A stretch of 38,084 bases of DNA from Helicobacteraceae bacterium. Lineage in GTDB: Bacteria > Campylobacterota > Campylobacteria > Campylobacterales > Sulfurimonadaceae. The notes beneath the pieces were generated by a model. It was not told where the DNA came from. It made no database searches and worked only from the letters and a program-made list of their open reading frames with translations. Positions 24,815-33,369 of the stretch are shown here, piece after piece; the first letter of the stretch is position 1; each line of letters opens with the position of its first letter. The stretch lies in contig CANMJR010000028.1 in assembly GCA_947498025.1 (NCBI GenBank), positions 1 to 38,084 on the forward strand, read 5' to 3'. The position numbers and the translations under genes were made by a program.

Positions 24815-27376
24815 ATGAATGAAGTTAAAACAATATATTTAAAAGATTATAAAGCACCACTGTTTGGCATCATTCAGTGTGCCTTAACATTTGAGCTCTT
24901 TGAAGATGAGACAATTGTTACAAATAGCATGAAGATAAAAAAAGTGGATGGGAGAGCAAAAGATATTGTTTTGGACAGTGTTGATTTGGAGCTTCTAGAG
25001 GTGTGGCTCAATGATTTGCAAATTTATGAACCTCGCTACAAAGTGGAGAAAGAGAGCCTGAGTATTTTCAATATTCCGGATGATTTTACTCTGAAAATAA
25101 AAAATAAAATATTCCCGCATGCCAACACCGAACTCGAAGGTCTCTACAAATCAGGGACAATTTTTTGTACTCAAAATGAGCCTGAGGGGTTTAGAAAAAT
25201 CACCCCTTATTTAGACCGTCCTGATGTTATGTCTGTTTTTACAACTACAGTTATTGCGGACAAAAAAAGCTACCCGATTCTTCTTAGTAACGGGAATAAG
25301 AGGGAGACAAAAGATTTAGAGAATGCAAGACACAGTGTAACGTGGCACGACCCGCATCCAAAACCATCCTATCTTTTTGCACTTGTAGCAGGAGATTTGG
25401 GAGTTGTAACCGATAGTTTTATGACCATGAACAAACAGCAAGTGGAGCTCAATATCTACTGTGATTTAGGAAATGAATCCAAATGTGCACATGCTATGAA
25501 GTCGCTCAAAGAGTCTATGCTTTGGGATGAGCAAAAGTATGGGAGAGAGTATGATTTAGAGATTTACAATATCGTGGCGGTGGATAGTTTTAACATGGGA
25601 GCTATGGAGAACAAGGGTCTGAATATTTTTAACTCCGCTTATGTTTTGGCGAATGAAGATACCGCAACCGATGCAAACTTTATGGGGATTCAGAGCGTTA
25701 TCGCACATGAATATTTTCACAACTGGACGGGAAACCGTATCACATGCCGTGACTGGTTTCAGCTTACACTCAAAGAAGGGCTAACAGTTTTTCGTGATCA
25801 GTGCTTCTCTGCCGATTTGAACTCCAAAGAGATGCAGAGAATTGAGAGTGTCATAGCACTTCGAGACAGACAGTTTGTGGAGGATGCTTCGCCGACAGCA
25901 CACCCGATTCAGCCCGACTCCTACATGGCGATAAATAATTTCTACACGGCTACCGTGTATGAGAAAGGTGCCGAAGTGATTCGCATGATTCACACTCTTT
26001 TGGGTGAGGAGAACTACCGCAAAGCGACGGATTTATACTTTGAGACTTTTGATGGTCAAGCGGTGAGAACGGATGATTTTTTATGGGCGATGAGCAGTGC
26101 GAGCGGAGTAGATTTGAGTGCATTTGGGATTTGGTACCATCAATCAGGAACACCAAAGTTAGTTGTAAAAGAGAGTTATGAAGATGGTGTTTATAAGCTA
26201 TATTTGACGCAGAGAGTTCCGCATGCGGTAGATGCAACTGCTCAGAAACCATACTTCTATCCGCTAAAGATGGCTCTTTTGGATGAGAGCGGAGAAGAGA
26301 TTGTAAATCAGATTTTAATAATAAAAAAGGAGGCGGAAGAGTTTGTATTCGATGGGTTAAAATCAAAACCTGTTCTCTCTCTCAACCGCGATTTTTCTGC
26401 TCCTATTATAGTTGAACAGGAAAAAACAGATTATCCGTTTTTGATGAAATATGACAAAAATAGCTTTGTACGATATGAATCGGCTCAATCTTTTGGGGTA
26501 AAAACACTTGAAGCAATGATGGAAGGCGAAGAGATAGATAAGGAGTTTGTAAATGCATACGGCTCTATTTTAGAGCTGGATACCGACCTCTCGTACAAAG
26601 CACTTTTGCTTGAGCTTCCATCTGTATCAACTTTAATGCAAAGACAAAAAGTGGTTGACTTTGAACCTATCTATAAAGCCAAAGAGAAACTTTCAAAACA
26701 TTTAGCAGCTACCTACAAAGAGAAATTATTGGAATTTTATGATGCATTCCATGCACCGAAGAACAGCGAGATAGACGCCCTTAATATTGGTAAAAGAGCG
26801 ATTAAAAACCGAGTTTTAAGAGTTCTTTCATCGCTGGAAGACGAGGAGATAATCAATTTGGCGAAGAAACAGTATGAGGAGTCTTTGACTATGACAGACA
26901 GAGTTGTAGCTCTTGATATTTTAGAAAATACTTCAGCCCTTGATGCCACTGTGGCACAAGCAGATTTTTATGCAAAATATAAAAATGATACTTTGGTTAT
27001 GAATAAATACTTCTCAATTTTAGCAGCCTCACATAGAGATGGAACGCTTGATAGGGTTATGGCTTTGCAAAACGATGAAGTTTATGATGAAAAAGTGCCA
27101 AACCTCGTTCGTTCACTCATAGGTGTTTTTGCTCGAAACTATAAACATTTTCATGCAAAAAATGGATATGGATACTCGTTTTTAGCAGATAAGATAATTG
27201 AGATAGATAAAATTAATCCGCAAATGGCTTCGGGGCTCTGTTCGGGATTTAAAATATATGAGAAATTGAATAAAATCAACAAAAATCTTATGAAAAAAGA
27301 GATGGAGCGTATCATTTCTACACACTTTCTCTCAAAAAATTCTTATGAAATTATTAGTAAAATCTTAAAAATTTAA
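24815..27376 (+). CDS. pepN: Aminopeptidase N (M1 family)
   Basis: 853 residues, close to E. coli PepN (870). A zinc peptidase that removes N-terminal residues from peptides in the cytoplasm. The exopeptidase motif GAMENKG (near 265) and zinc site HEYFHNW (near 297), with the third ligand Glu in LKEG 18 residues further on, are intact. The C-terminal half carries the helical superhelix of the bacterial M1 group. The Tyr needed for catalysis is expected in the TVYEKGAE stretch (near 385). It is a single gene divergent from the pilus operon. No strong promoter sequence stands out upstream, apart from AT-rich boxes. Confidence 0.95.
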   Translation: MNEVKTIYLKDYKAPLFGIIQCALTFELFEDETIVTNSMKIKKVDGRAKDIVLDSVDLELLEVWLNDLQIYEPRYKVEKESLSIFNIPDDFTLKIKNKIFPHANTELEGLYKSGTIFCTQNEPEGFRKITPYLDRPDVMSVFTTTVIADKKSYPILLSNGNKRETKDLENARHSVTWHDPHPKPSYLFALVAGDLGVVTDSFMTMNKQQVELNIYCDLGNESKCAHAMKSLKESMLWDEQKYGREYDLEIYNIVAVDSFNMGAMENKGLNIFNSAYVLANEDTATDANFMGIQSVIAHEYFHNWTGNRITCRDWFQLTLKEGLTVFRDQCFSADLNSKEMQRIESVIALRDRQFVEDASPTAHPIQPDSYMAINNFYTATVYEKGAEVIRMIHTLLGEENYRKATDLYFETFDGQAVRTDDFLWAMSSASGVDLSAFGIWYHQSGTPKLVVKESYEDGVYKLYLTQRVPHAVDATAQKPYFYPLKMALLDESGEEIVNQILIIKKEAEEFVFDGLKSKPVLSLNRDFSAPIIVEQEKTDYPFLMKYDKNSFVRYESAQSFGVKTLEAMMEGEEIDKEFVNAYGSILELDTDLSYKALLLELPSVSTLMQRQKVVDFEPIYKAKEKLSKHLAATYKEKLLEFYDAFHAPKNSEIDALNIGKRAIKNRVLRVLSSLEDEEIINLAKKQYEESLTMTDRVVALDILENTSALDATVAQADFYAKYKNDTLVMNKYFSILAASHRDGTLDRVMALQNDEVYDEKVPNLVRSLIGVFARNYKHFHAKNGYGYSFLADKIIEIDKINPQMASGLCSGFKIYEKLNKINKNLMKKEMERIISTHFLSKNSYEIISKILKI

Positions 27377-27545: not shown

Positions 27546-29015
27546 ATGGCAAGATTAGTTGTTTTAGGGGGCGGTGTCTCGGGACACACAGCTGCGACCT
27601 TCGCAGCAGAGTGGTTAGGTTCAGCACATGAAGTTGTGGTTGTAACTCCAAATGCAAAGTGGAATTGGATTCCATCAAATATTTGGGTTGGCGTTGGTCA
27701 GATGACTAAAGAAGAAGTTACTTTTGATTTAGCTCCTGTATATGCAAAAGCCGGCATTATTTATCATCAAGCAAAAGCACTTGGTATTCACCCAGAGGGG
27801 AATGAGACAAGTGATAAGCCTTATGTAGTTGTTGAGTCAACTGAAGCGGGCAAAGCTGGTCAAATTGAAAACATAGAGTATGATTATCTTATTAACGCAA
27901 CAGGTCCAAAGCTTAACTTTGCTGCAACTCCTGGTTTAGGTGATGCGAATGGCTTAGGCGAATTTACTGTTTCAGTTTGTACAGCAGACCATGCAGTACA
28001 TGCAAATGAAGAGCTTCATAAATGCATAGAAAAAATGAAAAAAGGTGAGCGTCAGAAATTCTTAATCGGTACAGGACATGGTATGTGTACTTGTCAAGGT
28101 GCTGCATTTGAATACATTTTCAACATTGAGCATGAATTAAACAAAGCTGGTGTTCGTGATATGGCAGACATCAAGTGGATTTCAAATGAATCATTTTTAG
28201 GCGATTTCGGTGTTGGCGGACTTCACATGAAAGCTATGGGGTTTGCAGTAAGCTCAAAAATATTTGCTGAGTCTCTTTTTGCTGAGCGTAATGTCGATTG
28301 GATTATTGGCGCACATGTTAATAAAGTTGAAAAAGGTAAAGTTCACTATGAACTTCTTGATGGAAGTATGGGTGAAGAAGAGTTTGATTTTTCAATGTTA
28401 ATTCCTCCATTCGCTGGTGTTGGATTAAAAGCTATCAACAAAGCCGGTGAAGATATTACAGCAACTATTTTTGCTCCAAACGGATTTATGAAAGTGGATG
28501 CTAACTATGCTGCCGGTGCTTATGAAAACTGGAAAGCTAGTGACTGGCCTTCAACTTACCAAAACCCAACTTATGGAAATGTGTTTGCATGTGGAATCGC
28601 TTTTGCACCGCCGCATCCAATTTCTAAGCCGATGAGTTCACCAAATGGAACTCCAATTAACCCGACTCCTCCAAGAACCGGTATGCCATCAGGTATCATG
28701 GGTAAAGCTGTTGCACATAGTGTTTGTGACAGAATTTTAAAAGGTCCGGATGCTCCATTACATGAAGCTTCTATGGCTCATATGGGTGCTGCTTGTGTTG
28801 CTTCTGCAGGTAAAGGTTTATTTACTGGAACTGCTGCTGCGATGACAATTTATCCTGTTGTTCCAGATTTTGAGAAGTACCCGGGAACGGGTCGTGATAC
28901 AGAATATACATTCGGTGAAATCGGTCTTGCCGGTCACTGGATTAAACATATTTTACACCACTTGTTTATTTGGAAAGCGAAGCTTAAGCCGGGCTGGACA
29001 CTTATTCCAGAATAA
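27546..29015 (+). CDS. sqr: Sulfide:quinone oxidoreductase
   Basis: 489 residues, FAD-dependent. Oxidises sulfide and reduces the quinone pool at the membrane. The dinucleotide fold has GGGVSGHTAATFAAE at the N-terminus, NATGPKL, and a second FAD motif NVFACGIAF before a proline-rich loop. Cysteines in positions expected for SQR catalysis occur at VCTADHA (near 142), GMCTCQGAAFEY (near 178) and AACVASAGKG (near 418). The C-terminal segment (GLAGHWIKHILHHLFIWKAK) is an amphipathic membrane anchor. The SQR subtype is not assigned. RBS AGAGGAA is 7 nt before the ATG. A hairpin lies at 29054-29074 after the stop. Confidence 0.93.
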   Translation: MARLVVLGGGVSGHTAATFAAEWLGSAHEVVVVTPNAKWNWIPSNIWVGVGQMTKEEVTFDLAPVYAKAGIIYHQAKALGIHPEGNETSDKPYVVVESTEAGKAGQIENIEYDYLINATGPKLNFAATPGLGDANGLGEFTVSVCTADHAVHANEELHKCIEKMKKGERQKFLIGTGHGMCTCQGAAFEYIFNIEHELNKAGVRDMADIKWISNESFLGDFGVGGLHMKAMGFAVSSKIFAESLFAERNVDWIIGAHVNKVEKGKVHYELLDGSMGEEEFDFSMLIPPFAGVGLKAINKAGEDITATIFAPNGFMKVDANYAAGAYENWKASDWPSTYQNPTYGNVFACGIAFAPPHPISKPMSSPNGTPINPTPPRTGMPSGIMGKAVAHSVCDRILKGPDAPLHEASMAHMGAACVASAGKGLFTGTAAAMTIYPVVPDFEKYPGTGRDTEYTFGEIGLAGHWIKHILHHLFIWKAKLKPGWTLIPE

Positions 29016-29246: not shown

Positions 29247-29411
29247 ATGTCAAAATATGGCGAAAAAAATATTAGAGCGTATGGAAATAACTTTACAACT
29301 ATGACACCTGGTCCGGTTGCAAAGTGGCTAAGAACATGTCTTATTTTTCAGGCAATAAGATTTGTAATAATCAACATAAAAATGCTAGTAGTGGTAAGTA
29401 AAAGCCACTAA
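29247..29411 (+). CDS. Small hydrophobic protein (54 aa) downstream of sqr
   Basis: A complete frame of 54 codons with a good ribosome site (AAGGA, 7 nt before the ATG). The protein starts MSKYGEKNIRAYGNNF, then TPGPVAKWLRT, then a hydrophobic or amphipathic segment (CLIFQAIRFVIINIKMLVVV) and ends in SKSH. It could be a single-pass or peripheral membrane peptide. I do not recognise a family. It lies 232 bp after sqr with the palindromic repeat between them. Function as an SQR partner is only a guess from position. Length and spacing support a real gene, but comparison with relatives is needed to confirm it. Confidence 0.6.
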   Translation: MSKYGEKNIRAYGNNFTTMTPGPVAKWLRTCLIFQAIRFVIINIKMLVVVSKSH

Positions 29412-29421
29412 AACTACAAGT

Positions 29422-29442
29422 ACCTTGGGAAATTCCCAAGGT
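29422..29442 (+). terminator. Hairpin after the 54-aa gene
   Basis: ACCTTGGGA, loop AAT, TCCCAAGGT (9-bp arms), 11 nt after the stop of the small gene. No T run follows, so it could be a terminator or only a barrier before the next gene. Confidence 0.45.
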
Positions 29443-29512: not shown

Positions 29513-30322
29513 ATGATTCAAGAGATAATCAAATACCCGACACCGCCAAGCATTGAGTATGGAACGGATGTTAGAATTTTTAATGAAGAAATATTTACCC
29601 TTCTTGATGATTTAAAAGATACCATCAATGAAAATAATTTAGAGGCTTTGGCAGCGTTTCAAATTGGAAGTTATTATAATATTGTTGTGATTAAAGAGAA
29701 GGATGGAACTTTTTTAGAGTTAATAAATCCTAGACTCATTAGCACAAAAGATAAAATCACAACCACGGAGACAACAGCATATTTTCCTAATCTGAGTGCT
29801 GAGATACAAAGACATGATAATATAAGTATAATTTATCAAGAGAGAGATGGTTCAATGCACTCTTTAATGGCTAGCGGAGATAAAAGCATTTTACTCCAAA
29901 GAAAACTAGACTACAATTTTGGAGCAACATTTTTAAGTAAATTGTCCAAAAAAGAGAAAGCAAAGTTTGAGAAAAAACTTGAATTTAGCTCGGATTTTGC
30001 AATCTCTGAGAGTTGTCCGACAACTTTTAAAAGAGACTATTTGGTAAAACTATCAAATATTTTACTTATTTCTATGGTATTACTTATAGTGGTGTCTTTC
30101 TTTATCAGCAATCAAGAGATACATTCCGGCATGTGGAAGACTCAACTATTTATCTCTATCACTGCCTTGCTAACTAATATTGCATACTTTTTTTACGCTC
30201 ATTATGAGGCAAAGCAGTACACTTCATGTGTGAGTTGCCAGAGCGGAAATATTATCGGCACTGCCCTTGTTGCACTGATTAAAATAACAGTGCTTACGGT
30301 TGCTTCCTACTTTATAATATAG
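29513..30322 (+). CDS. Membrane protein with an inactive peptide-deformylase domain
   Basis: 269 residues. Residues 1 to about 165 follow the peptide deformylase fold order: a PTPP start (compare YPDPRL), motif 1 LEALAAFQIG (usual GVGLAAPQVG), motif 2 FPNLSAE (usual EGCLS), and motif 3 LQRKLDYNFG (usual QHExDHLxG). The Cys and both His that bind the metal, and the catalytic Glu, are replaced (N, R, Y and K in order of position), so deformylation is not expected. Three hydrophobic segments follow (about 180-200, 210-230, 245-268), with CVSC between the second and third. It sits 15 bp before a hybrid kinase on the same strand. A sensing or scaffold role in signalling is an inference. Confidence 0.75.
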   Translation: MIQEIIKYPTPPSIEYGTDVRIFNEEIFTLLDDLKDTINENNLEALAAFQIGSYYNIVVIKEKDGTFLELINPRLISTKDKITTTETTAYFPNLSAEIQRHDNISIIYQERDGSMHSLMASGDKSILLQRKLDYNFGATFLSKLSKKEKAKFEKKLEFSSDFAISESCPTTFKRDYLVKLSNILLISMVLLIVVSFFISNQEIHSGMWKTQLFISITALLTNIAYFFYAHYEAKQYTSCVSCQSGNIIGTALVALIKITVLTVASYFII

Positions 30323-30337
30323 GTAATTTTTATTAGA

Positions 30338-32623
30338 ATGAATAATAAGGTTACCTCTCTTATCAATGCGCAGTCAGCTTTTATAGCAGCAAAAGAGACA
30401 ATCCTTTGGGATTGGATTGCGTATGACTCCCCAAAACAAATCTTACTCCAACATGAAATTGAGCCAGAGGAGTTCATCACTAAATATGCTACGGGAGTTT
30501 TTGATTATTTTATGAGTTTAATTGCAGGCAGAGTCGAGGTTGGTGGCTGCCCTGTTATGGAGCATCTATTAACATATTTAAAAGATAAAGATATTAGTGC
30601 AGATGAGTTGTTTGAGATATGTAGTCACTTTCGTCGTGCAATGATTAACTTCTCCTATGATGCAGGTTTAAATAGTAGAAATATTTCTGATGAAATTTCG
30701 TATGTTTTTGATAAAAATTTTAGAGGAATTTTAAAATTTTATACGGATACTATTTTTCAAAAACTCATCGATGCAAAGCTGGAAGCTTTAAACGCCTCAC
30801 GGGCAAAAGAGTACTTTTTATCAAATATGTCGCATGAGATTAGAACTCCGCTTAATGCAATTTTGGGCTTTGTCAATCTGTTAATAGATGATGATATTTC
30901 TAAAAAGCATAGAAAATATCTTGATATTATTCAAAACAGCGGTGAAAATCTTCTGAGTATTATTAACGATATTTTAGATTTTTCAAAACTTCGCAGTGGT
31001 GAGTTCACAATAGAACCTAAGATATTCTCTCTTCATGATGAGATAAGCCACACAATGGAGCTATTTATTGCGAGTGCTACAAGCAAAGATATTACAATTG
31101 CCTCATTTATTGACCCAGAAATTCCAAAAGAGTTGTACGGGGATTCGCTAAGAATAAAACAGATTCTATCCAATTTTTTAAGTAATGCCCTAAAGTTTAC
31201 AAAGAGCGGTGGAGTTATCTCTGTAGAAGCAAGTTGTGAAAATAAACTTCTAAAAATAAGCGTTGAAGATAATGGCATCGGAATAGAAAAACAAGATATT
31301 AAAAAAATATTTACGGCCTTCGTTCAAGCCCAACATTGCGAACAAAGCAATTGTTCCGGAACAGGTCTTGGTCTGTCAATTTGCAATCAACTGGCACTCC
31401 ACATGGGCGGCAGAGTGAACGTTGAATCTACCATAGGTAAGGGAAGCCTGTTTTGGGTGGAAATTCCTATAGAAATTCACTCTAACGAGTGTCATATATT
31501 TGAAAATTTAAAAGAGTTTTTAAATCTTAAAATTGGACTTTACTCTAAAAACAGAGAATCTATTTTTCAATATGAGTCACTGCTAAAATATGCAAATGCG
31601 TTTGGTATGGATATGGAAATAGTTGATACTCTTGACGGCGATTACGATATATTTATTTTTGTTCATGAAGAGATTAATTTCAAGTTAAAAAACAGTATTA
31701 TGAATTCTGATAAGAAGTATATTGCCCTCATGAGTAAACACTATGATGATTATGAGGTAAATGAGCATATAGCGCCCATGTGCTTTCCCCTTTATTGTTC
31801 AAAAATATACTCTACTATAAATGAACTTTTGCATAAAAGCGCAGATAATACTGTCTATGCCCAATCATCTCATCTTTTTGATGGACATATACTTATAGCA
31901 GAAGATAATGAAGCAAATCAAGAGCTTATGAAAATTATACTCACAAAGTACGGACTCAGCTTTGACATAGCAAATAACGGCTTAGATGCACTGAACTTAT
32001 ATAAACAAAATAGGTATGATTTGATTCTGATGGATGAGCAGATGCCTCTTATGAGCGGTATAGAAGCTCTAAAAGAGATAATCAAATATGAAAATGAGAG
32101 CAAAACTAGACATACTCCTATTTCTGCACTTACTGCTAATGTTATTAAGGGTGCCAGAGAGAGAGGTCTTCTTAGCGGTTTCGACGCATTTTTGGGAAAA
32201 CCTATCATTCTTAAAGAGCTGGAGAGAATCTTTTTAACATATTTAAAAGTGAATAAGAGTAGTAAAATAGAGCTCAAGCAAGAAAAGAGATCAAATGAAA
32301 CCATTATGGGGTTAGATGTAAAAAAGCTTAAAGATACACTCTTGCTCAATGATGATGAGCTTAAACTGCTCATTGAAATGTTTATAAAAAAGATGAAAAA
32401 ATCTCTGCCGGACTTAGAAAATGCAATTCACCAGAAAGATTATAAAAAAATAGCCCTCATAGCACATAGCATCAAAGGTTCGAGTGCAAATTTTAGATTA
32501 GAAGAGTTGCAAAATAGTGCCGGGGAGATGGAAAAAATGGCTCAAAATAAGAATAGTGAATATCAATATGAAGCTGTTTTTGAAATTATTAATCAAAATG
32601 TTCAAATGATAAAAATCTCCTAA
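30338..32623 (+). CDS. Cytoplasmic hybrid histidine kinase (HisKA-HATPase-REC-HPt)
   Basis: 761 residues, without membrane segments. The N-terminal helical domain (about 1-150) is not recognised; it ends in a stretch rich in aromatic residues and may resemble the RsbRD-type N-terminal domain. The kinase core has the H-box SNMSHEIRTPLNAILGF (His near 166), the N-box LSNFLSNALKFTKSGG, DNGIGI and GTGLGLSI. The region 390-515 looks like a receiver-like fold without the acidic pocket. A real receiver follows (about 520-640; ILIAEDNEAN, phospho-Asp in LILMDEQMP). The HPt domain (about 665-755) has AHSIKGSSANF with phospho-His. Phosphorelay His-Asp-His is thus contained in one chain, and the convergent regulator is the likely final acceptor. 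Confidence 0.9.
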   Translation: MNNKVTSLINAQSAFIAAKETILWDWIAYDSPKQILLQHEIEPEEFITKYATGVFDYFMSLIAGRVEVGGCPVMEHLLTYLKDKDISADELFEICSHFRRAMINFSYDAGLNSRNISDEISYVFDKNFRGILKFYTDTIFQKLIDAKLEALNASRAKEYFLSNMSHEIRTPLNAILGFVNLLIDDDISKKHRKYLDIIQNSGENLLSIINDILDFSKLRSGEFTIEPKIFSLHDEISHTMELFIASATSKDITIASFIDPEIPKELYGDSLRIKQILSNFLSNALKFTKSGGVISVEASCENKLLKISVEDNGIGIEKQDIKKIFTAFVQAQHCEQSNCSGTGLGLSICNQLALHMGGRVNVESTIGKGSLFWVEIPIEIHSNECHIFENLKEFLNLKIGLYSKNRESIFQYESLLKYANAFGMDMEIVDTLDGDYDIFIFVHEEINFKLKNSIMNSDKKYIALMSKHYDDYEVNEHIAPMCFPLYCSKIYSTINELLHKSADNTVYAQSSHLFDGHILIAEDNEANQELMKIILTKYGLSFDIANNGLDALNLYKQNRYDLILMDEQMPLMSGIEALKEIIKYENESKTRHTPISALTANVIKGARERGLLSGFDAFLGKPIILKELERIFLTYLKVNKSSKIELKQEKRSNETIMGLDVKKLKDTLLLNDDELKLLIEMFIKKMKKSLPDLENAIHQKDYKKIALIAHSIKGSSANFRLEELQNSAGEMEKMAQNKNSEYQYEAVFEIINQNVQMIKIS

Positions 32624-33369
32624 TCATCTATAAAATATCCTATTCCGGATGCATTTTTGATAATGTCATCTTTGAGTTTACTCCTAAGTCTCCAAACTAA
32701 GGTTCTGACACTGTTTTCAGTAGCACCACTTCCATCCCACACATAATTTATAGCCTGCTCAAAGCTAACAGCAACACCCATTTGAGCAACAAGAAGTCTT
32801 AGAAAAGCATTCTCTTTCTTTGTCAGCTTAATTTTTTTGCCTTTGTAAAATGTTTCACTCAGCCCAATGTCTAAATAATAATCTTCACCAAAAGGTACGA
32901 TAGGCTTATCTGATAATTTTTTTGAATAGAGAAGCTTCTCCAAGTTTAATTTATCAACTTTGAGAGAGTTAATATCATTTTTCCTTTCACCCTCTATTTT
33001 ATATTTAAAGAGAGCCATTTGTATGGTTGCATGGAGAGAGTTTGGGTCAAATGGTTTAACGATGTACCCATAAGGCTCAGTTTGTTTAGCCTGAGATATT
33101 ATCTCATCATTACTATAAGAAGTTAGATATATAAAAGGAATATTGTATTCTATTCTTATCTCTTTTGCGAGTTCAATTCCATCATTACCATCTTGTAGTG
33201 ATATATCAACAAGTATAATGTCTGGTGAATAGACTTTAATCTTATTTTTGGCTTCAGTAGCACTTTCACACATGGCAACCACATTGTACCCATGCCGCTG
33301 AAGCGATAAGCTTAGATTGGTGGCTGTAATCTCATCATCTTCAACTATAAGGATATTTACATTTTCCAT
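32620..33369 (-). CDS. OmpR-type response regulator, output of the phosphorelay
   Basis: 249 residues. The receiver (about 4-120) has ILIVEDDE, the phospho-Asp in IILVDISLQDG, and KPFD near residue 105. A linker of about 50 residues leads to a winged-helix domain (about 165-249) with YVWDGSGATENSVRTLVWRLRSKLKDD and a C-terminal GIGYFID wing. In this domain ENSVRTLVWRLRSKL matches the DNA-reading helix of OmpR relatives. It is on the opposite strand to the kinase and its TAG interlocks with the kinase TAA (CTAA at 32620-32623). The long linker and this arrangement are notable. Its targets are unknown; it is the only regulator near the kinase. Confidence 0.9.
   Translation of the reverse strand: MENVNILIVEDDEITATNLSLSLQRHGYNVVAMCESATEAKNKIKVYSPDIILVDISLQDGNDGIELAKEIRIEYNIPFIYLTSYSNDEIISQAKQTEPYGYIVKPFDPNSLHATIQMALFKYKIEGERKNDINSLKVDKLNLEKLLYSKKLSDKPIVPFGEDYYLDIGLSETFYKGKKIKLTKKENAFLRLLVAQMGVAVSFEQAINYVWDGSGATENSVRTLVWRLRSKLKDDIIKNASGIGYFIDD

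Follow-up and report, generated by a model that had tools for sequence, protein, structure and literature searches.

A membrane-anchored pseudo-peptide-deformylase linked to a sulfide:quinone oxidoreductase locus in Campylobacterota

Non-catalytic homologues of peptide deformylase (PDF) have lost their catalytic residues within the PDF scaffold, and the same is the case for the protein described here, a membrane-anchored pseudo-peptide-deformylase (mPDF). We know of no non-catalytic PDF homologue that has a membrane part or a sulfide:quinone oxidoreductase (SQR) gene as its neighbour. Pseudoenzymes and SQR are each already known, and in the open-access literature searched a pseudo-deformylase combined with SQR was not found in print, and no paper paired deformylase with Sulfurimonas. 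The passages in the open-access papers checked that mention deformylase together with SQR concern formyl-THF deformylase, and the portions of PMC7952632 and PMC4584964 covered contain 0 mentions of deformylase. Automatic annotation probably labels genes of the mPDF type 'peptide deformylase'.

The window is the whole stretch of DNA analysed, 38,084 nucleotides from a Helicobacteraceae bacterium. The locus comprises the following genes.

24815..27376, plus strand: 853-aa gene upstream of sqr, found there in 43/49 same-genus loci and 0/10 others; presumably M1 aminopeptidase N
27546..29015, plus strand: SQR homologue of 489 aa, upstream of mPDF (phmmer, PF07992)
29247..29411, plus strand: unannotated 54-aa gene between sqr and mPDF, with a homologue in 59/59 sqr-mPDF gaps and dN well below dS
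29513..30322, plus strand: mPDF, 269 aa, membrane-anchored pseudo-peptide-deformylase (open reading frame, PF01327 match, AlphaFold2 model)
30338..32623, plus strand: hybrid histidine kinase with an N-terminal helical domain, HisKA, HATPase, receiver and Hpt (domain search; N-terminal model)
32620..33369, minus strand: response regulator with receiver and Trans_reg_C domains, convergent with the kinase (domain search)

Linkage to SQR and the small gene

The product of 27546-29015 is homologous to solved SQRs. It matches 3hyv in phmmer with E 1.7e-40, three of its Cys residues are aligned to Cys, and PF07992 is matched with E 1.3e-08. The three aligned Cys are presumably the SQR redox cysteines. 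In the NCBIfam search for the SQR type the only match was NF049943, with 36 bits against a cut-off of 525.

The distribution of mPDF was determined in two genome sets. The first panel consists of 118 genomes, the window's own included, and contains 76 mPDF matches in 66 genomes and 83 SQR matches in 81 genomes; the 76 matches include contig-edge fragments, and two of them in G033 are perhaps one split gene. The phylum sample consists of 249 Campylobacterota genomes that were drawn evenly and overlap partially with the first panel. It contains 37 genomes with both mPDF and SQR, 19 with SQR alone, 193 with neither, and 0 with mPDF alone. mPDF is restricted to SQR genomes in 37/37 cases in the phylum sample and in 65/66 in the first panel, where the one genome that deviates, G038 (82% complete), has its mPDF at a contig edge. 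Within the window's genus, mPDF is absent in 15/16 genomes without SQR and present in 53/56 with SQR. The two genes are also neighbours: in the first panel, sqr immediately precedes mPDF on the same strand in 60/76 matches, with a median gap of 269 nt, and in the phylum sample 34/42 mPDF genes are found directly downstream of sqr. The phylum genomes outside the first panel hold 27 mPDF genes in 23 genomes, with SQR in 23/23 and 20/27 genes directly downstream. Fisher p-values for the mPDF-SQR association are 1e-16 and 2e-30, which are overstated because the genomes are related by descent. The link between mPDF and SQR is well supported and very probably real. SQR occurs without mPDF in 16 first-panel and 19 phylum-sample genomes, thus SQR does not require mPDF.

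The small gene has a wider distribution than mPDF. The 59 sqr-mPDF loci, which include L068 (G118) from outside the 118 genomes and leave out L109 (G095), all carry it, and a homologue was found in 19/19 further sqr loci. Among 20 sqr loci without an adjoining mPDF, 19 have the small gene and L201 has none; 16 were detected by pattern and 3 by eye, namely L199, which has diverged, L200, and L207. In the core of the small gene, synonymous change exceeds amino-acid change in 8/8 comparisons. Since the small gene is also found at sqr loci without mPDF, SQR and the small peptide gene are the wider core, and mPDF is present in a subset. The C-terminus of most of the small peptides is KSH or KSHH. 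Additionally, a perfect 10-nt inverted repeat lies between the small gene and mPDF at 29422-29442 and has a terminator-like score on the minus strand.

The deformylase-like domain and its membrane part

PF01327 matches residues 2-149 of mPDF in Pfam with E 6.6e-27 and 94.5 bits (cut-off 22.8). TIGR00079, the NCBIfam equivalog for true deformylases, gives 62.5 bits, which is under its cut-off of 103.95. The AlphaFold2 model, built with 60 sequences, has a mean pLDDT of 86 and a pTM of 0.55 and features a PDF-like domain at residues 1-158. Deformylases are the top matches of this model in a Foldseek search of the PDB (2ew7, E 1.1e-12, TM 0.82 by target), and VIA-align reaches a best Z of 20.9 over 156 residues with E. 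coli 1bsj; the matches of both programs span residues 1-159 only, that is, without the membrane part. AlphaFold2, Foldseek, and VIA-align agree on the PDF fold for the modelled protein. The first-pass annotation had described a deformylase-derived protein with recognisable motifs and had proposed structure prediction as a check; the PF01327 match and the register of motifs I-III bear out the description, and the prediction returned the deformylase fold. At the level of the model, mPDF is confirmed as a membrane-anchored pseudo-deformylase. The window genome additionally encodes a canonical Def (186-aa frame on C17) and another long paralogue (272-aa frame on C13). The parts of mPDF discussed below are as follows.

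29513..29986, plus strand: domain with the PDF fold (residues 1-158), predicted to be cytosolic; matched to PDB deformylases by Foldseek and VIA-align
29660..29662, plus strand: Gln50 of motif I, retained in 33/34 (alignment)
29774..29776, plus strand: Thr88, which replaces the metal-binding Cys of EGCLS
29900..29914, plus strand: R130-K131-L-D-Y134, which replaces the deformylase H-E-x-D-H (alignment)
30014..30016, plus strand: Cys168 in a CPT motif, just ahead of the first membrane helix (34/34; 60/60; 73/75 in the wider set)
30035..30316, plus strand: three membrane helices, residues 175-195, 201-234, and 237-268 (AlphaFold2/DSSP, hydropathy)
30227..30238, plus strand: C239-V-S-C242, a CxxC between helices 2 and 3 on the predicted cytosolic face (34/34; 71/71 rows reaching it)

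The metal site was compared in an alignment of 34 mPDFs with 31 canonical Defs from related genomes. The metal Cys is present in 31/31 Defs and 0/34 mPDFs, which have Thr (29), Asp (3), or Ser (2) at this position. The first metal His, found in 31/31 Defs, is Arg in 32 mPDFs, His in 1, and Gln in 1. The catalytic Glu (31/31 Defs, 0/34 mPDFs) is replaced by Lys in 32, Gln in 1, and Met in 1, and the second metal His (31/31 Defs, 0/34 mPDFs) by Tyr in 30, Met in 2, Leu in 1, and Phe in 1. In the window protein these positions are T88, R130, K131, and Y134, in agreement with the earlier claim that the Cys, the two His ligands, and the catalytic Glu are replaced. Motif I has lost its first Gly in 34/34 mPDFs and has the second in 15. 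Glu86, Arg100, Gln129, Asp133, and Gly137 are retained in 34/34.

The motif columns have a mean entropy of 0.90 versus 1.59 for the rest of the mPDF domain, and a value as low was obtained in 1/10,000 random column sets and 5/10,000 random block sets. Because the motif columns are more conserved than the remaining domain, the old pocket looks like one that has been put to a new use rather than one in decay. The reading of mPDF as a decaying pseudogene was rejected: the 76 first-panel matches, some of which are cut by contig ends, are without an internal stop, the motif columns are under tighter constraint than the other domain positions, and dN is 0.028 versus a dS of 0.200 between the window and L074. 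The mPDF frame of L072 (G066) is an exception. It stops at 180 aa and thereby lacks the membrane part, of which only a weak match of 27 aa (E 0.007) is found ~1 kb further downstream; no kinase follows, and this copy looks broken. The phylum-sample rows from G276, G217, and G152 have one stop each inside the matched stretch; their loci carry full-length mPDF frames of 268, 269, and 263 aa, respectively, and the stop in each row is therefore probably the one that ends the frame.

The membrane part features the invariant cysteines of the family. C168, C239, and C242 are the only invariant Cys columns in the 34 mPDFs, and every other column has at most 4 Cys. Cys168 is absent from L072_4, the broken-looking gene, from the partial L100_0, and from L231_0 at a contig edge; the triad is present in 19/20 further loci, where L231_0 is the one without the first Cys. 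The C239/C242 loop has a mean of 2.06 Lys and Arg residues versus 0.68 for the loop that joins helices 1 and 2, and there is no hydrophobic stretch ahead of helix 1. Together, these features suggest that the PDF domain and all three Cys face the cytosol, as predicted from sequence. The three transmembrane segments of the first-pass annotation were recovered, but the CVSC motif sits between helices 2 and 3 and not after all of them. A redox role for this Cys pair is possible. A Pfam scan of the 34 mPDFs gave no family for the membrane part and only weak scattered matches, such as FeoB_associated in 4/34 with a best E of 0.0019.

Family tree and paralogue loci

The tree was built from 72 membrane proteins and 20 of the 31 canonical Defs, with L070, L103, and L104 left out; one of these Defs, c_L019, has a very long branch. 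One branch splits the mPDFs from the Defs with 100/100 support, and the mPDFs are a single clade. A paralogue clade of 11 rows (100/99), which includes the C13 copy of the window genome, is nested inside the mPDF group. The window organism itself is Sulfurimonas-like, with a Sulfurimonas as its closest named record (97% identity). There are 14 mPDFs with neither sqr nor a kinase as neighbour, and all 11 paralogue rows are among them; the mPDF of L105 (G111) also has neither alongside.

The 12 paralogue loci consist of the 11 tree rows and L104, which was assigned to them because the genes upstream of it agree in number and length with those of L101. A CMD-family gene is found upstream in 6 of the 12 and a DsrE-family gene in 4, and L078 and L093 carry an additional pair of Sulf_transp-type genes; the neighbours were assigned by Pfam for L034 and L078 and by BLAST for the others. 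A kinase neighbour was found in 0/12, of which L101 and L104 reach a contig end just downstream. A CMD gene also adjoins mPDF in L213 and L214. In the window's own genome, the second mPDF paralogue (L034, C13:12000-26000) lies near CMD-family, DsrE-like, and MerR-type genes.

Two placements in other records were observed. L075, from another family (the L075/L119 record is titled Arcobacter sp.), has an sqr and an mPDF close to those of the window and no kinase, and its mPDF groups beside the window protein in the tree. Transfer of the module would account for this placement, as would a binning error or misplaced contig. L162, in a record titled Helicobacter pylori PMSS1, has a Sulfurimonas-like mPDF with 60% identity, and the title looks wrong.

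Possible functions and comparison with known systems

The computed evidence, which consists of the fold, the loss of the metal site, the conservation of the pocket and of the three Cys, the nesting of mPDF in SQR genomes, and the gene order, points to a pseudoenzyme of an SQR module. The reading that accounts best for it, held tentatively and at somewhat less than an even chance, is that mPDF is a membrane-anchored pseudoenzyme that serves the SQR module, with the pocket as a docking site for a partner and the Cys residues handling sulfane sulfur or thiol redox. The module in Campylobacterota would have the order sqr, small peptide gene, mPDF. Its PDF domain would not cleave; it may instead dock a partner, which could be the small peptide or SQR, held by its N-terminus or tail. 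The three Cys at the inner membrane face may accept, pass on, or reduce the sulfane sulfur (persulfide) made by SQR, or they may sense it. In the Sulfurimonas family, the hybrid kinase at the locus probably regulates the locus. The proposal of a sulfur relay is based on the conservation of the Cys residues and on the neighbouring genes, and the Cys could instead bind metal or be structural. Against a role in the SQR module speak the genomes that have SQR without mPDF and the mPDFs that have no sqr beside them, namely those of the paralogue clade and of L105. A broader claim, that a three-part membrane module of SQR, the tiny peptide, and a sulfane-sulfur-carrying pseudo-deformylase runs sulfide oxidation in many Campylobacterota, is possible but doubtful.

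It is also conceivable, although rather unlikely, that mPDF is an assembly or docking factor, in which the pseudo-PDF domain would bind the N-termini of membrane proteins that keep their formyl-Met, those of the small peptide or of others, and would aid their assembly, with the Cys structural or metal-binding. The retention of Gln50, Glu86, and Arg100, which we take to be substrate-facing positions, and the presence of the small gene next door in 59/59 loci are in keeping with such a role. According to the title of PMC5454389, SRP prevents the N-terminal processing of bacterial membrane proteins, which counts for it as well. However, assembly by itself leaves the conservation of the three Cys and the thiol/sulfur company of the paralogue unexplained.

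The hybrid kinase has been at the centre of another proposal, in which the dead PDF domain would bind formylated or N-terminal peptides, or the CxxC would sense redox, and signal to the adjacent kinase. In the window, 15 nt separate the mPDF and kinase reading frames, and the spacing is 0-20 nt in 36/41 measured pairs. A kinase follows mPDF in 41/49 sqr-mPDF loci of the window's genus and in 8/8 same-family loci of a further set. A stricter script returned a kinase in 39/59 loci, since in L058 and L059 the longest reading frame starts in overlap with mPDF, and a wider limit gives 41/59. Among the 8 same-genus loci without a kinase, L079 and L103 reach a contig end and the mPDF of L072 looks broken. 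The kinase gene beside mPDF in L045 (G013) is present as two reading frames of 236 and 351 aa and is probably broken. Outside the family, however, the kinase is found at 0/19 sqr-mPDF loci (0/10 and 0/9 in the two sets), and it adjoins mPDF only in the Sulfurimonas family. Six loci (L192, L194, L196, L197, L213, and L214) have the order sqr, small gene, kinase with no mPDF between, and no mPDF was found genome-wide in G022 (82% complete) or G042 (99%). The mPDF gene and the kinase gene are therefore each found at sqr loci without the other. Because the kinase is absent outside the Sulfurimonas family and occurs at sqr loci without mPDF, it is a feature of one family's sqr locus and not of mPDF as such.

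The kinase also owns an N-terminal domain of its own, which weighs against mPDF as its input. The first 150 residues (30338-30787) are modelled as an all-helical domain with a pLDDT of 87.6, in which C71 and C95 are invariant in 55 sequences, and this domain is a possible sensor in its own right. A PDB sequence search with the kinase N-terminus had a best E of 1, and a structure search with the domain gave no match under E 0.001; the best was 0.098, among globin, phycobilisome, and RsbR-type rows, which is only a hint of a globin/RsbR-like fold class for the model. The co-occurrence with the hybrid kinase that the first-pass annotation proposed to survey holds for many genomes of the same family and fails at the 19 loci outside it. 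Its idea that the dead domain exists to report to the kinase is not supported by these loci and the six sqr-kinase loci, and an obligate kinase input as the main function of mPDF was rejected on the same counts. Signalling to the kinase is an improbable function for mPDF and is at best a family-specific extra.

Sensing by the cysteines without catalysis is improbable to the same degree. Here mPDF would be a thiol or persulfide sensor whose Cys sense sulfane sulfur and which passes the signal on to SQR activity, to the kinase if the locus has one, and to other partners elsewhere. The Cys conservation and genomic context that favour the SQR-module reading favour a sensor too, and a kinase is present in one family; against this, in the loci examined no output partner besides the sqr locus is conserved across families. 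That mPDF has remained an active deformylase, or is a different hydrolase whose active site has changed, is very hard to credit: the fold, Gln50, and Glu86 are retained, but none of the 34 mPDFs has the Cys, the Glu, or the second His, and the first His is found in 1/34.

The tie of mPDF to SQR and the tiny peptide gene suggests that it may assist sulfide oxidation in a way not described before. The genes for the pseudo-deformylase and for the tiny peptide, both of which accompany one SQR, are two concrete genes that can be deleted. If the three-part membrane module is real, it would reveal the destination of the SQR sulfur on the inner side of the membrane, and an enzyme fold linked to translation and protein maturation would have been re-used as a membrane accessory in sulfur metabolism.

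Three known systems are closest to this locus. The hybrid histidine kinases, for which BarA and TorS are the best NCBIfam matches, share HisKA, HATPase, receiver, and Hpt domains with the neighbouring gene, whereas no part of mPDF is kinase-like and sqr loci that lack mPDF can have the kinase. The upstream gene is a homologue of SQR (PDB 3hyv, 3sz0); mPDF itself is no SQR but a satellite gene of that locus. Peptide deformylase (PF01327; E. coli and H. pylori Def) shares with mPDF the fold, the register of motifs I-III, and Gln50, Glu86, Arg100, and Asp133. In contrast to peptide deformylase, mPDF has lost its metal ligands (the Cys and two His) along with the catalytic Glu, and it has gained three membrane helices and three conserved Cys.
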